Assembly (NCBI RefSeq): GCF_028275055.1
Contig: NZ_JAQCNJ010000097.1
Location: 1 to 59,286 of the forward strand
From: Haloplanus sp.
GTDB lineage: Archaea; Halobacteriota; Halobacteria; Halobacteriales; Haloferacaceae
DNA length: 59,286 nucleotides
Reading direction: 5' to 3'
This document shows positions 53,173-59,286 of the stretch, in pieces. The notes beneath the pieces were generated by a model that worked only from the letters and a program-made list of their open reading frames with translations, did no database searches and was not told the origin of the DNA. Position 1 is the first letter of the stretch; each line of letters begins with the position of its first letter. The position numbers were made by a program, and so were the translations under genes.

Positions 53173-53883
53173 TCAGTCGTCGGCGGTGACGACGTCCGAG
53201 TCGGCCGTCTCGGCCTCAGCCTCGGCCTCGGCTTCGGCTTCGGCTTCCGCTTTCTCCTCGGCTTCCTTTTTCGCCTTGATCTTCTTCAGGCGGAAGATCT
53301 CTTCTCGCTCCTGTTCTTCCAACTTCTGTTCGATGTACTCCTTGTTTTCGTGGAGGTCGGGGAGGAGCTTGAACTCGAGGGCGTTGACGCGGCGCTTTGT
53401 CGTCTCGATTTCGGTCAGCATCTTCTTCATCGCCGTCTCCACCTCGGCGGCGAGGATGATGGATTCGATGAGTTCCTCGTAGGCGTCGGCGGCCTCGTCG
53501 ATGCGGGCGGAGGAGCCGAGCAAGCCGTAGCCTCGTTGGTCGAGGCTCTTTCGCACGCGCGAGGACTCGATCTGTGGGACGACCACACCCATGATGTTTT
53601 TCGACTGGGTCGTGATCTCGGGGTGTTCTTTCAGTGCCGCGGCCGCGCCGCGCACAGCCACGTCCCCTTCCATCGCCCGTGCCATGTTGATCTTGCGTTG
53701 GGCGGTCTGGTAGTTCGCGTCGAGATCCGCGCGGATGTCTCGGGCTTGGTCTAGAATGTCCATGAACTCCATGATGAGGCCGTCTCGCTTCTGTTCGAGC
53801 GTGTCGTGACCCCGCTCTGAGAGTTCGATCCGATCCTCGATCGCCATGAGGTTTTTGCGAGTTGGTTTGACGTCCTCGTCCAT
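53173..53883 (-). CDS. atpD: A-type ATP synthase subunit D
   Basis: A 236-aa central stalk subunit of the archaeal A-type ATP synthase, an antiparallel coiled coil inside the A3B3 head. [37 protein letters not shown] and the C-terminal [11 protein letters not shown] are diagnostic. The C-terminal tail has a highly acidic Ala-Glu repeat (about 210-225) not needed in the usual family. Normally it follows atpB directly; here bat, bop, crtY and brp lie between. Confidence 0.95.
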
Positions 53884-53910
53884 TGCCGAACGGTTGTGGG
53901 CGGAGGCGGT

Positions 53911-53920
53911 TAACGTTTTA
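53911..53920 (-). promoter_or_regulatory. TATA-like element for atpD
   Basis: On the minus strand taaaacgtta lies about 28-37 nt before the atpD start and overlaps the brp stop codon. It would let atpD be transcribed separately from the bop genes inserted before it. Confidence 0.4.
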
Positions 53921-54958
53921 CTGTTTTACCCCGTGCCGTTCGGCCCGGTCCATCCACGTCACGACCGCGACGTGGGGAAGCGTCAGAACGGCGATAAAGA
54001 CGAGATACAACGCGGCCAAGCGGCCGGGAGCCGTCTCAACACCGACGGCGACGCCGGCCCCGACCAACAGAACGACCGAGAGCCCGGTCAGCGGGGCCGC
54101 CTCCCGGCCCGTTCTGGCGAGTGCCGCGATCGCTCCCCGGTCAGAAAAGGTCGCACGCGCGCCGTCACGATCGATCCCGATCAGCCTGGCGAGGTGTCGG
54201 AGCGAGTGCCACAGACAAAAGTACACCCCGATGGCGACGAGCGGCGGGACGACGAGAAAGTACAGCCACAACGCAACCGTCTCGGCGACGTCGCGGCGCC
54301 ACACTCGGCCGTTCGCCCGTCGGTAGCCGGCGAGAAGCGTCGCCACCGTCACCGTCGCGAACGCGACGGCCAAGCCGAGTCGACCATCGACGGTGATGGC
54401 AAACGCCAGATCGCGGCCGAACAACGATACCCACGCGTCAACCACCTGTCGGTATCGGTCCGGGTGGGCGAGAAGCGGAACGAGCATCGGTAAGCCGCCA
54501 CGGACAAAGAGCGTCCCTGCGCGGACGCCCGGGCCGTCGAGGTAGTCGGCACCGAGCGCCTCGAGAGCGTACAGATCCCCTTGCCCCCAGTGGAACCAGG
54601 TCAACGCGACGAACAGAACTGCCGAGGCGACCGGGGCGACCGTCCACAGGAGGGCGTACCCGCCTCCGAGAAGAAGATACACGACGCCGACGAGCACCAT
54701 CCACCGCGGTGTCGTCCGGCGGCCGGCCGCACGGGCGGGCGCGAGGTGGTCGATCGCGCCGTGAGGGAGCCCGAAAAGGAGTAGGCTCGCTGCGAGGGGC
54801 AGGTACCGGACCCACGCCGGGAGCGGTGAGGTGACACCGAGGGCCGCCACGGCGACGGCGAGAAGGCCAACAACGGCGACGGCGGCCCATGCCGGGTGAC
54901 AGCCGACCGCACGCATGATCGCCGCGAGTTCGGGATCGGCCGCCTGTCGGTCCGACAT
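53918..54958 (-). CDS. brp: Brp/Blh beta-carotene 15,15'-dioxygenase
   Basis: A 346-aa membrane enzyme that splits beta-carotene to two retinals for bacteriorhodopsin. Conserved His-rich motifs that bind the iron are visible: [31 protein letters not shown] and [12 protein letters not shown]. There are about eight membrane helices. It lies 3 nt after crtY, so the two form an operon that ends the retinal pathway. Confidence 0.9.
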
Positions 54959-54961
54959 CGG

Positions 54962-55774
54962 CTACGCCGAACCGGGCTCGTCGTCCGGTGCTCGCAGTCG
55001 GAGCGTCGCCACCGAGTTGTCGGCCCGGCGGTCGAGTACCCACCGGTAGAGGACAAGCCCTTGAACGACGAAGATATTGGTCACGAGAAAGAAAAGCGCC
55101 TCCTCAACCGGGAGCCCGGCGACGGTCAAGCCGGTGGTGTACTCCTCGGCCAACACCCAGATACCAAGCTCGATGGCGATGCGATCGGCAACACACAGGT
55201 ACGTCGTCGGGACGGCCACCCCGATGGTGACGAGGCGTTTGCGTGCCCACAACTGGGGTGCGCCGACGCCCCACTGCAACGCCAACACCGGCGCGCCCCA
55301 CGCGAGGATCGCCCCGAGGTAGAACGTCGCCGACGTGCCGAGCAGTCGCCAGCCGGCGAGGCCGACGAGGGTAGCGGCACCGAGGGCCGCCAACCGCGGC
55401 CGCCAGCGAAGCGCGCGCCCGGTGTCAGGCCATGACCCCGGAAGCGAGAGGTGGGAAAGCCACAGCGCGGTCAGCCACGGCTGGACGAGAATAAACAGGT
55501 ACTCCCCGAGCGGGGCGTAGCCGATCGTCGCGACCGTGCTCCCGTCGCCGTACCACCAGACCCCTCTCGCGATCAGGTAGTTGTCCCACGGTGTCGTGTA
55601 CACCAGCGCGACCACGGTGATGATCGCAACCCCGGTCCAGTACGTCCGTCCCGAGCCAACCTGTGGCACGGCGTCGGGGAGTTGTGCCCGACTTACGAAC
55701 GCCGTCGCGATCATCAACATCACCGCCGGAATGAGAAACGCGATATGGAACTGGAGGTATGTGAGGCTGGTCAT
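54962..55774 (-). CDS. crtY: Lycopene beta-cyclase (CrtYcd type)
   Basis: A 270-aa membrane protein with seven predicted helices, a fusion of the two halves known as CrtYc and CrtYd. The duplicated PxxE signature is seen in APLGEYLFILVQPW and GLPVEEALFFLVTNI, and PWDNYLIARGVWWYG is typical. It cyclises lycopene to beta-carotene, the Brp substrate. The ATG at 55774 is preferred over an upstream in-frame ATG. Confidence 0.9.
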   Translation of the reverse strand: MTSLTYLQFHIAFLIPAVMLMIATAFVSRAQLPDAVPQVGSGRTYWTGVAIITVVALVYTTPWDNYLIARGVWWYGDGSTVATIGYAPLGEYLFILVQPWLTALWLSHLSLPGSWPDTGRALRWRPRLAALGAATLVGLAGWRLLGTSATFYLGAILAWGAPVLALQWGVGAPQLWARKRLVTIGVAVPTTYLCVADRIAIELGIWVLAEEYTTGLTVAGLPVEEALFFLVTNIFVVQGLVLYRWVLDRRADNSVATLRLRAPDDEPGSA

Positions 55775-55896
55775 CGTAGGGATGTCTGAGTGTAGAGCAG
55801 CGGTTGTTCGTCTGTGCGTATAGCTTCTCGGGTCTCGGGACACCGAACGGAGCTGCCGGCGAGAACAGGGGTGCCGGCTCCGTCGTCAGCTATCGA

Positions 55897-56643
55897 TTAG
55901 TCGGCCGCTTCCGCGGTGCCGGTACTCGATCCTGCGGCGTCGAGCACCTCGCGGCTCGACAACAGGATGATCCCGAAGCCGACCTTCGCGACCAGGTCGA
56001 GCACCATGAAGCCGGCCGTCTCGATGGACAACGACACCACGCCAAGTCCTTCGGTGCCGACGATCCACCAAGCCGGGTAGACCAGCCAGACAACGACGAT
56101 CAGCGTCCGAAGCGTGCTGAACGTCGATGCCGCATCGCCCGAGAGCCGGCTGGCCTTGTCTCCGAGGGACCCGTACAACATGTACAGCAGCACGAGCAGG
56201 AAGCCCGTGGAGACGCCCCACCAGATCAGCCGCCGGGCACCCTCACCGAGTGCGCCCGGGCCGGCCGACAGCGTCGCGACAGCGCCGGTACCGATCATCA
56301 GCATGTCCAGGCCGACGAGCGCCGAAAGCTGGTTCCGAGTCGCCCCGGCGAGCAGGCCGAGGTCGATCAACAACAACGGTGTCGTGAAGAACCAGTCCGT
56401 GTATCGCGCCCAGTAGATCGGTAGTTCTTCGCCACCGACCATCACGTTTGTCAGGCCGAATCCCAGTGCCATCGCGAGATAGTTCGTGAACGCGATGGCT
56501 GTGATGAATATGGTGACGATATAGAACTCCTGTCGCCGTTCATCCGTTTCTCCCCAGCCCCTAGCGACGAAGTACAGCATCCCTAGGAACATGCCGAGCG
56601 TGCCGATCCAAAGCCAAATCCCCTCACTGCCTGGTTGTGGCAT
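55897..56643 (-). CDS. bop: Bacteriorhodopsin
   Basis: A 248-aa seven-helix retinal protein. Proton-pump residues by bacteriorhodopsin numbering are conserved: R82 (here R80), D85 (D83) in [14 protein letters not shown]89 (T87), D96 (D94) in [10 protein letters not shown]194 (E198), E204 (E208), D212 (D216) and the retinal Lys216 (K220) in [10 protein letters not shown]. These point to an outward light-driven proton pump rather than a sensor or chloride pump. There is no long N-terminal propeptide. It lies between the bat and crtY genes and within the atp operon. Confidence 0.96.
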
Positions 56644-56672
56644 AGTGCAGTTGCATACTCAATAGGGAATGG

Positions 56673-56678
56673 TTGTAA
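56673..56678 (-). promoter_or_regulatory. bop TATA-like box
   Basis: On the minus strand TTACAA lies about 30-35 nt before the bop ATG. The bop gene in Halobacterium has a TTTACACA-like TATA box and a transcript start 2 nt before ATG, so the spacing fits. Confidence 0.5.
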
Positions 56679-56686
56679 GCGGCGTA

Positions 56687-56699
56687 CACAACTAGTTGG
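56687..56699 (-). promoter_or_regulatory. bop upstream activator-like sequence (Bat site)
   Basis: Minus strand reads ccaactagttgtg, close to the ACC-n-actagTT-n-G-type UAS reported upstream of Bat-regulated genes in Halobacterium. It lies about 9 nt upstream of the TATA-like box, at roughly -42 to -55 from the expected transcript start. Bat binding is inferred. Confidence 0.5.
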
Positions 56700-56716
56700 A
56701 TTCTGGGGGCCGACGG

Positions 56717-58363
56717 TCAGCCGTCGAACATCGCACCGACGACTTTCCGCTGGGCAGCCCGGAGATGCTGGTGGAACGTCGACCGACAGACGCCCATCGC
56801 CTCCGCGATGTCGTCGCCGGTCGCCTCGTGTGGCCACTCGAAGAAACCGCCGGCGTACGCCCGAACCAGCGCGGCGCGTTGTCGGTCCGTGAGGTCGGCT
56901 TTCAGGCGCGCGACAAACTCCTGTTGGGTCTCGGGGCGTCGCTCCCGCCGACGGTACCGGGTCAGGTCCGCAGCCTCGAAGCGGTCGGTGACGGCGGTGG
57001 CCAAAGACCGGGCGAGTGACTCACGCCCGACCTCGATGGTGAACTCGCTGGCCATCGGCGTGACCGTCGCCGCATGCAGTTCGGCCCCGTGGTCGGCGAG
57101 AAGCCCCCGGATCGACGGGGCGGTGACGGACAGTTCGACGAGACACTCATCGTCTTTCTCGACAACGACGGCGTGAAGCTCGACCGGAGCCGTCCGTGTC
57201 GCCGCCCGCACCGCGTCTGCGTCGGCTCCGTCGACCTCGAACAGTTCGGCCGGGGAGTCTCTGTCCCCGACACTCCCGGCGTACTCCAACTGGCAGTCGG
57301 CCGCCGCGGCCACCGAGAGCAACGGGTGGTCGCTGGCCACCGAAAACTGGAGCTCGATCAACTCGTCGGCCCGGAGCATGCGGTGACTTTCGAGCGCGTT
57401 GATCCCCGTCGCGACCGTCCGTCCAAGCGCCGTCAGAACGGCACGTTCGTGGTCGCCGAAGTCGGTGCTGTCCCGGACGTACACACAGAGAGCGCCGTAG
57501 GTGGCGTCGCCGTAGTGGAGCGGGACGGCACCGACCGCGGTCGACGCGTCGCCAAGCGGTCGGATTCGGACGGTCCGGTCGTCGACCGCGGTCGACACCG
57601 CCGCCGCGACGGGAGCGGGGGTGTCGTCGCGGCCGACGGCGACCGGGATGCGGTCAAGCGCCTCGTCGCCGTCGGTCCAGCCGGCCTCGGCCTCCGGAAC
57701 GACGGCTTCGCCGGCCGGATCGTAGCGGCCGACCCACGCGCCCGCGTACGTCTCCGACAGCCGCGTCACGATGTCGCGCTCCAGCGACGCCTGTGATCGC
57801 GCCTCCGCGACCGCACGGGTCACATCGACAACGACCCCGTCGATCCGGTTCAACAGGCGTTCCTGCGCGTTCCGTTCTCGGTCGAGACGCGACGCGTGCC
57901 GGGCAGCAGCCTGTTCGGCCCGCTTGCGGCGGGTCACGTCCTGTTGGAAGCCGACGTAGTGGGTCGCCTGTCCGCTGTCGTTCCGGAGCGGCGCGATGGT
58001 CACCTCGTTCCAGAACAGTTCGCCGTCCTTCCGGTAGTTGCGGAGTTCGACCGTCGTCGCCTCCCCAGCCTCGATCGCCGCCCGCATCTGGGCCACCGGC
58101 GCAGTCCGGGTCTCCTCGCCCTGAAGAAATCGACAGTTGCGGCCAACGGCGTACTCCGGCGAGTAGCCGGTGATCCGTTCGAACGCCCCGTTCACGTACA
58201 CGAGCGGCATGTCCGGCTGTGTCGCGTCGGCGACCGTGATCCCGACCGGCGCCTCGTCCATCGTCCGAGTCTTCAGCGACTCGTCGACGGCCGGCGCGCT
58301 CGCGGCCGTGATTCCGGCGCATGATTCCTCGGCGTCCGGTTCGGCATCGCCGCGGCGTGACAT
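56717..58363 (-). CDS. bat: Bacterio-opsin activator Bat (LOV-GAF-HTH10)
   Basis: A 548-aa transcription activator for bop genes. Residues about 35-165 form a PAS/LOV domain with GRNCRFLQG, in which Cys77 is the residue that forms a flavin adduct in LOV photoreceptors. A GAF domain follows (about 200-350, ESTYAGAWVGRYDPAG-like region). The bacterio-opsin activator domain and HTH10 are at the C-terminus (LTDRQRAALVRAYAGGFFEWP...VCRSTFHQHLRAAQRKV). The start ATG at 58363 is chosen; the frame is open upstream. It lies 73 nt upstream of bop. Confidence 0.93.
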   Translation of the reverse strand: MSRRGDAEPDAEESCAGITAASAPAVDESLKTRTMDEAPVGITVADATQPDMPLVYVNGAFERITGYSPEYAVGRNCRFLQGEETRTAPVAQMRAAIEAGEATTVELRNYRKDGELFWNEVTIAPLRNDSGQATHYVGFQQDVTRRKRAEQAAARHASRLDRERNAQERLLNRIDGVVVDVTRAVAEARSQASLERDIVTRLSETYAGAWVGRYDPAGEAVVPEAEAGWTDGDEALDRIPVAVGRDDTPAPVAAAVSTAVDDRTVRIRPLGDASTAVGAVPLHYGDATYGALCVYVRDSTDFGDHERAVLTALGRTVATGINALESHRMLRADELIELQFSVASDHPLLSVAAAADCQLEYAGSVGDRDSPAELFEVDGADADAVRAATRTAPVELHAVVVEKDDECLVELSVTAPSIRGLLADHGAELHAATVTPMASEFTIEVGRESLARSLATAVTDRFEAADLTRYRRRERRPETQQEFVARLKADLTDRQRAALVRAYAGGFFEWPHEATGDDIAEAMGVCRSTFHQHLRAAQRKVVGAMFDG

Positions 58364-58447
58364 ACTGCCCTGTGGGAACGTGGTTACAAAGGAGTTTGGC
58401 CGGGCCGAACCAAACCGAACCGACAATGAAAATCGCGCGCGTGGCGG

Positions 58448-59286
58448 TCAGTCCGCCGTGGCCTCTTCCTCGGTCGCGTCCTCGTCGTAGTACGTCTCGA
58501 TGAACTCCTCGTCGATCCGGTTGAGCTCCTCCGTGGGGAGTTGTGAGAGAAGCTCCCAGCCGATGTCGAGGGTCTCTTCGAGTTCGCGGTTCGTGTTGAA
58601 GCCCTGGTCGACGAACTCCGTCTCGAACGCGTCCGCGAAGTCGAGATACTTGTTGTCCCGCTCTGACAACGCCTCGCGGCCGACGATGTTCACGAGGTCA
58701 CGGAGGTCCTCACCCTCCGCGTACGCGGCATACATCTGGTCCGAGACATCGGCGTGGTCCTCGCGGGTGAGACCCTCGCCGATACCGTCGTCCATCAGCC
58801 GCGAGAGGGATGGCAACACGTTGACCGGGGGCTGGATGCCTTGGCTGTTGAGGTCGCGGTCGACGTAGATCTGCCCCTCCGTGATATACCCTGTCAGGTC
58901 GGGGATCGGGTGGGTGTCGTCGTCGCCGGGCATCGTGAGGATCGGAATCTGCGTGACCGATCCCTCACGGCCCTGGATCCGGCCGGCCCGTTCGTAGAGT
59001 TGGGCCAGGTCGGTGTACATATACCCGGGGTAGCCACGCCGACCCGGCACCTCCTCGCGGGCCGCACCGATCTCCCGGAGCGCCTCGCAGTAGTTGGTCA
59101 TGTCCGTCAGGATCACCAGCACGTGGTAATCCTTATCAAAGGCGAGATACTCGGCGGTCGTCAGGGCCATCCGCGGCGTGACCGTCCGTTCGACGGCCGG
59201 GTCGTCCGCGAGGTTCATGAAGACCACGGAGCGTTCAAGCGCGCCGGTGCGCTCGAAGTCGTCCATGAACTCGTTGGCCTCCTCGG
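58448..59286 (-). CDS. atpB: A-type ATP synthase subunit B, 5'-partial
   Basis: The C-terminal 279 residues of the regulatory B subunit of the A-type ATP synthase; the start lies beyond the window edge. The frame is open from 59286. [52 protein letters not shown] and [32 protein letters not shown] are hallmark segments. The bat gene starts 84 nt after its stop, instead of atpD. Confidence 0.97.

Follow-up and report, generated by a model that had tools for sequence, protein, structure and literature searches.

A bacteriorhodopsin gene cluster between atpB and atpD of Haloplanus sp., a recurrent haloarchaeal layout at a probable boundary between transcription units

Genes for retinal-based phototrophy have been described at the junction of atpB and atpD, which encode subunits B and D of the A-type ATP synthase of haloarchaea. 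Verma et al. (2020; PMC7755889) reported phototrophy genes at this junction and proposed random insertion, while Verma et al. (2019; PMC6465532) described the site for Haloarcula and also for Halogeometricum rufum, in which a PAS protein and a lycopene cyclase are present as well. Linkage of the Haloarcula bop gene to H+-ATPase genes was noted by Sharma et al. (2007; PMC1885257). In Halobacterium salinarum, bop is under the control of Bat and preceded by an upstream activator sequence (PMC2253796, PMC3184054), and crtY and blh are retained between atpB and atpD (PMC7755889), which looks like the remnant of such a cluster. Here we analyse a bacteriorhodopsin gene cluster at the same junction in Haloplanus sp. 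(assembly GCF_028275055.1). It lies on a stretch of 59,286 nucleotides (the window), which is the entire contig NZ_JAQCNJ010000097.1 (C60) of a draft assembly of 102 contigs and ~79% completeness. The layout is real, recurrent and published, and is not new. We consider it likely that the cluster represents a module for retinal-based phototrophy at a site that commonly houses such genes in haloarchaea, regulated locally and with atpD on its own promoter, and that one old locus is the likelier origin.

The gene order on the minus strand is atpB–bat–bop–crtY–brp–atpD, six reading frames that were each identified by profile. Intergenic gaps in the same order are 84, 73, 122, 3 and 34 nt, with the bat start taken as the ATG at 58363; a TTG at 58426 is an alternative start. 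The features are:

58448..59286, minus strand: atpB, A-type ATP synthase subunit B, C-terminal 278 residues (PF00006, PF22919; TIGR01041, 529.6 bits)
58429..58432, minus strand: T-tract TTTT shortly 3' of the atpB stop, possible archaeal terminator (sequence reading; class-sample counts)
58384..58390, minus strand: TATA-like TTTGTAA, 21–27 nt upstream of the bat ATG (sequence reading; AT peak at −28)
56717..58363, minus strand: bat, bacterio-opsin activator with LOV-type PAS (GRNCRFLQ), GAF, BAT and HTH_10 domains (profiles)
56690..56697, minus strand: Bat-type upstream activating box AACTAGTT, 47–54 nt upstream of the bop ATG (sole copy in the window)
56673..56678, minus strand: TATA-like TTACAA of bop, 30–35 nt upstream of the ATG (sequence reading; AT peaks)
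55897..56643, minus strand: bop, bacteriorhodopsin with DLVAKV motif (PF01036, 222.6 bits)
54962..55774, minus strand: crtY, lycopene cyclase of the CarR-domain type (TIGR03462, NCBIfam CarR domain, 122.8 bits)
53918..54958, minus strand: brp, Brp/Blh family beta-carotene 15,15'-dioxygenase, retinal synthesis (PF15461, 254.6 bits; TIGR03753, 236.8 bits)
53909..53920, minus strand: promoter-like box TAAAACGTTAAC upstream of atpD, overlapping the brp stop codon (pattern in class-sample atpD upstreams)
53173..53883, minus strand: atpD, A-type ATP synthase subunit D (PF01813, 197.3 bits; NF001542, 368.5 bits)

Coordinates and profiles bear out the order, identities and gaps given in a first-pass annotation made from the sequence alone. 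The contig end cuts atpB and places the remaining atp operon outside view; because of this truncation, atpB scores below the whole-protein cut-off of TIGR01041. Against Pfam Lycopene_cyc, crtY reaches 22.8 bits, below the cut-off of 27. The bop product carries the proton-pump residues Asp 85, Asp 96 and Lys 216, as read from motifs including DLVAKV and in what we take to be the appropriate numbering, and is a predicted light-driven proton pump of the bacteriorhodopsin kind. The genome also encodes two more rhodopsins, by motif halorhodopsin-like and sensory-rhodopsin-II-like; contig C41 carries a second Brp/Blh homologue.

The window shares with the junction cluster of Verma et al. (PMC7755889, PMC6465532) the site, the bop, crtY, brp/blh and bat families and the kind of organism: bop lies between atpB and atpD on the same strand, with crtY, brp/blh and bat alongside, and belongs to the lineage of bop genes at the atp locus. 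The text passages of the two papers do not spell out the exact four-gene order. Haloarcula is alike in that its bacteriorhodopsin gene adjoins ATP synthase genes (PMC1885257), but in the Haloarcula loci that we fetched bop is the sole gene of the cluster at the junction, bat, crtY and brp being absent, and the box before bop is changed. Halobacterium salinarum shares Bat control and an activator sequence upstream of bop, but its bop cluster is located elsewhere in the genome. Presumably Halobacterium-like bop genes (L268, L259) fall in the other bop clade, and the Bat of L268 carries His at the LOV Cys position.

For a class-wide sample, 9 kb of the atpD neighbourhood was fetched per genome, and atpD was found in 145 of 145 genomes, the window included. 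Cluster genes were detected with the window's own proteins, and distant homologues would count as other DNA. Between atpB and atpD, bop was present in 24 of the 145 genomes; one additional genome has bop upstream of atpD with atpB outside the fetched piece. With the window excluded and this last genome counted, bop is at or beside the site in 24 of 144 genomes, which represent 11 of the 58 genera and 5 of the 10 family codes. The full order bat–bop–crtY–brp occurs in nine genomes (window included) of three family codes, and cluster genes without bop occupy the junction in 16 (crtY–brp 7, bat 5, brp 4). Genes atpB and atpD are <700 nt apart with no cluster gene in 46 genomes and >700 nt apart with other DNA in 42, and in 16 the fetched 9 kb do not include atpB. 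Three extra genomes (L192–L194) stand outside every class-sample count. Among 11 genomes of the window's genus, eight have the full order, two only crtY–brp and one nothing at the junction. A further 64 named loci were retrieved via the bop protein, a set picked by likeness to the window bop and not a fair sample. Both atpB and atpD flank the gene in 38 of these, atpB only in five, atpD only in two and neither in 19, some of which simply had too little flanking sequence. The four-gene order was found in 17 of the 64, with both atpB and atpD seen in 11 (five Halobellus, three Halosimplex, Halorubellus salinus and two metagenome-assembled genomes).

These counts do not agree with the view of the first-pass annotation that the cluster is an unusual insertion. 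Its premise that atpB and atpD are usually adjacent holds for only the 46 genomes above, the rest having cluster genes, other DNA or no atpB within 9 kb. The synteny survey it proposed to tell a one-off from a clade trait excludes the former, with the full order frequent in the genus and infrequent in the class. That the draft assembly joined two unrelated segments is extremely improbable: the window is a single contig of a fragmented assembly and terminates in atpB, but eight of the 11 same-genus genomes, each in 1 to 10 contigs, show the identical order, as do named genomes.

In most sampled genomes, one transcription unit probably ends and another begins at the junction, as suggested by a T-tract after atpB and an atpD box that occurs in all contexts. 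AT-rich peaks lie ~30–46 nt upstream of atpD whichever gene precedes it (atpB, bat, bop, brp, crtY or other), and comparable peaks were not seen at atpB, crtY or brp starts. The atpD upstream sequences are alike, of the type AAAAnGTTAAC; this pattern was found in 109 of 145 class-sample atpD upstreams vs 50 of 2900 base shuffles (1.7%), and in none of 212 other upstreams (126 atpB, 21 crtY, 23 brp, 25 bop, 17 bat). T-tracts were counted with atpB in view in 128 of the 145 loci. They follow atpB in 81 of 121 loci, with ~22 expected from base shuffles, and in none of the seven loci with an atpB–atpD gap <100 nt; they follow bat in 3 of 17 loci, crtY in none of 21 and brp in none of 23. In Haloquadratum walsbyi, expression within the atp cluster is highest for atpD (PMC5496347), which fits an own promoter for this gene.

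Several points weigh against a boundary at this position. The atpD pattern was devised after viewing the same sequences and misses 36 of 145, many of the misses being visible variants such as ACAACTATTAAC, and all seven loci with an atpB–atpD gap <100 nt lack the box. T-tracts also occur 3' of atpD (59/145) and bop (13/25). The brp–atpD gap is just 34 nt with no terminator seen in it, and read-through is possible. Transcriptome sequencing of Haloferax volcanii puts the atp operon among transcripts of >7 open reading frames (ORFs), the passage leaving membership of atpD unstated (PMC6490895). Hairpins were discarded as candidate terminators: the stem after bop in the window was not clearly better than shuffles (z −1.49; 20/200 as good), z was below −2 in only 6 of 51 bop–crtY loci, and in 4 of 15 brp–atpD loci with gaps ≥63 nt. 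No terminator hairpin is claimed at the junction.

Within the cluster, candidate control elements concentrate before bat and bop. The box AACTAGTT at −54 to −47 of bop is the single copy in the 59-kb window and has two mismatches to the 15-mer that we take to be the Bat activator consensus of Halobacterium. The 82 atp-linked loci that have bop, 1.16 Mb in all and with a few genomes represented twice, contain 25 exact copies, every one at −70 to −40 of bop. The box precedes no bat, crtY, brp, atpB or atpD in upstream groups of ≥5 sequences. The presumed 15-base consensus with three mismatches was uninformative, at 22 matches vs ~30 expected, so that the exact 8-base core carries the signal. With at most one mismatch, the box precedes 34 of the 40 bop genes at the atp locus that have bat linked to them, vs 2 of the 29 that do not. 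This association was set aside as independent evidence, since it is not significant on the tree, where only 3–4 independent changes occur, and this too counts against our interpretation. Starts of bop outside the atp locus are partly miscalled (e.g. L268), and box positions of that group were not used. The AT content peaks at −28 over 46 atp-locus bat starts and at −16, −34 and −52 over 69 atp-locus bop starts. The TATA-like boxes noted at bop and bat in the first pass stand as separate promoter-like elements (TTACAA and TTTGTAA). Averaged upstream sequences of crtY and brp show no strong AT-rich promoter peak, for which reason bop–crtY–brp is probably one unit. In Haloarcula-type loci (e.g. 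L076, L078, L228, L231, L233), which have no linked bat, the ACC/GG flanks of the presumed Bat box are kept 40–60 nt before bop and the core is changed.

On this arrangement, the main atp operon would end after atpB and bat would have a promoter of its own. The Bat protein, which combines a LOV-type sensor with a DNA-binding domain, may then activate bop via the AACTAGTT box that immediately precedes the TATA element of bop; the bop transcript probably continues into crtY and brp, whose products would make retinal. Transcription of atpD would start at its own promoter overlapping the brp end, so that the pump comes under local regulation and atpD stays on its own promoter. Gene order, boxes and their conservation are read from the DNA; promoter and terminator activity, Bat binding, read-through into crtY–brp and light sensing are predicted from it.

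The layout invites a story in which pump and ATP synthase are wired together, as the first-pass annotation had suggested. Light or low oxygen would, via Bat, raise a bop transcript that reads through crtY and brp into atpD, and an ATP synthase subunit would rise with the pump. All genes are on the same strand, the crtY–brp and brp–atpD gaps measure 3 and 34 nt, the crtY and brp starts lack a strong AT-rich peak, consistent with one bop–crtY–brp unit, and no T-tract follows brp in 23 loci. We nevertheless regard such coupling as rather unlikely. The atpD box occurs whatever the context, including loci in which other genes or none lie before atpD, and 42 of 145 genomes hold other DNA at the same junction; no exact Bat box lies outside bop in the 82 atp-linked loci; and within the genus two genomes keep only crtY–brp at the junction and one keeps nothing. 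The Haloarcula marismortui bop at the junction is reported to be unchanged by light (cited in PMC7755889). The atpD box (109/145), the T-tract after atpB (81/121) and the restriction of the exact Bat box to bop weaken the co-regulation claim, of which a possible read-through from brp into atpD is the part that stands; the first two also led us to give less weight to co-transcription across the whole junction as the main explanation. An own atpD promoter would be compatible with some co-transcription, and both could hold at once. Transcription of atpD might come from two promoters, a constant one of its own and a bop promoter that is controlled by a LOV-cysteine, blue-light-sensing Bat and from which light induces read-through, a combination we judge improbable. 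If true, full-cluster genomes would raise an ATP synthase subunit with the pump in light, through a hard-wired link of light capture to ATP synthesis that is absent in relatives with an empty junction. Local regulation at an insertion-tolerant unit boundary that hosts a phototrophy module in many lineages is what the comparison suggests instead, and co-regulation is cleanly testable with the full-cluster, crtY–brp-only and empty-junction species of this one genus.

From 138 called bop genes, 122 rows for a bop tree were obtained by dropping identical proteins and two frames <200 residues (L057, L196). The bop and brp trees are quick trees without bootstrap and rooted at the midpoint, the true root not being inferred, and some genus assignments of tree rows are presumed ones. 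The bop tree holds 69 proteins from the atp locus and 53 from elsewhere. All 69 fall in one 98-row clade (SH-aLRT 100) alongside 29 rows from elsewhere, and the atp label changes nine times on the tree vs 39.8 times in shuffles. None of the remaining 24 rows is at the atp locus; they include Halobacterium-like genes and second copies of Halorubrum. Within the 98-row clade, bop of Natronomonas, Halolamina and a Halobaculum-like group sits elsewhere in the genome. The five nearest tree rows listed for the window bop are all from the atp locus, with 94% identity to L041. Over 61 loci (71 before near-copies were removed), Bop distances correlate with those of AtpB (rho 0.56) and AtpD (0.55), AtpB and AtpD with each other at 0.76, and none of 500 permutations was as high. 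In the brp tree, from which frames <250 residues were dropped, seven of eight loci with only crtY–brp nest with full-cluster loci of their own genus (two of the window genus, five of code g26), as expected under loss of bat and bop.

We favour, without regarding it as proven, one old bacteriorhodopsin locus that would have been reduced, moved or lost in many lineages as simpler than a fresh or repeated insertion; clustering on the trees is observed, and the direction of change is what we propose. The random insertion of Verma et al. (2020), in which bop and accessory genes entered an insertion-tolerant junction many times independently, is not favoured by our bop tree and seems to us quite unlikely, although the junction accepts other genes and the gene sets between atpB and atpD vary. 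It is difficult to reconcile with a single clade for 69 of 69 atp-locus bop genes at nine label changes, with a bat–bop–crtY–brp order that is the same in family codes f1, f2 and f7 as well as in Halobellus, Halosimplex and Halorubellus, and with Bop distances that follow AtpB and AtpD. Other observations speak for repeated insertion and against one old locus. In the bop tree, well-supported branches require the atp label to change at least five times. Mixing is greater in the brp tree, where the label for atp loci with bop changes 10 times vs 25.7 in shuffles and several brp genes of the atp locus cluster with copies located elsewhere. The crtY–brp-only locus L154 is not placed with its own genus, and four brp-only loci (code g44) group with bop-bearing loci of other genera. 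The trees cannot separate gain, loss and transfer together with flanking atp genes, because they are quick, lack bootstrap and leave the root uninferred.

The PAS domain of the window Bat has GRNCRFLQ, with the adduct-forming Cys of the LOV motif GxNCRFLQ, and residues 53–181 match a YtvA-family model at 147.1 bits, below the whole-protein cut-off of 250. Among Bats with ≥150 bits to the window Bat, the LOV Cys is present in every one of the 46 distinct Bats at the atp locus, of which 41 occur with bop and 5 without it; the Cys is also present in 12 of 16 linked to bop elsewhere and in four of four others. Four Bats lack it: L268, L276 and L285 have His, and L244 looks damaged or misread. Whole reading frames were used here; a pattern count on called starts (36 of 52 rows of atp-bearing loci) is too low, which we ascribe to called starts that cut the domain off. 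A second set of Bats, selected otherwise, has the Cys in all 33 Bats of the atp locus, in 22 of the 24 that are linked to bop elsewhere and in 6 of 9 others. The LOV Cys is universal among atp-locus Bats, yet not confined to the atp locus. From this motif, we predict that Bat at the atp locus might function as a classic LOV sensor. Yee et al. (2015; PMC4682037) described a Halorubrum Bat with Pro at the LOV Cys position and argued for redox or light sensing via flavin reduction; an archaeal LOV paper (PMC12202551) mentions neither bop nor Bat. Cys in all atp-locus Bats vs His in three Bats of other bop clusters bears on direct light vs redox sensing by Bat.

Some junctions show departures of their own. 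In genus code g7 (L084, L093, L096, L100, L137), bat stands alone between atpB and atpD in five of five class-sample genomes, four of which are listed without a rhodopsin match and one (G076) with one; an exact 8-mer search for a Bat target found no AACTAGTT in these five bat-only loci. In the window's genus, two genomes (L035 and L040, with L270 and L272) keep only crtY–brp at the atp locus and carry an other-clade bop at another place in the genome, as though the one pump had taken over from the other; G135 and G240 have both bop kinds. On L297 (G135), near position 2874, a second, different bop lies ~1.3 kb downstream of an atpD that has the full cluster upstream. In Halobellus inordinatus (L057 / L196, ~9001–9744 of L196), the called bop frame stops after 30 residues despite a full-length protein match, possibly by a nonsense change or a sequencing error. 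Ten ORFs from nine loci with other genes at the junction (eight loci in the class sample) were compared with Pfam; two had no match and eight matched EutB, EutA, EamA transporter, methionine synthase, 5'-nucleotidase, OsmC, WD40 repeats and AMP-binding enzyme. One ORF sequence cluster recurs at such junctions in 12 loci of family code f4, one of which holds the AMP-binding enzyme ORF.

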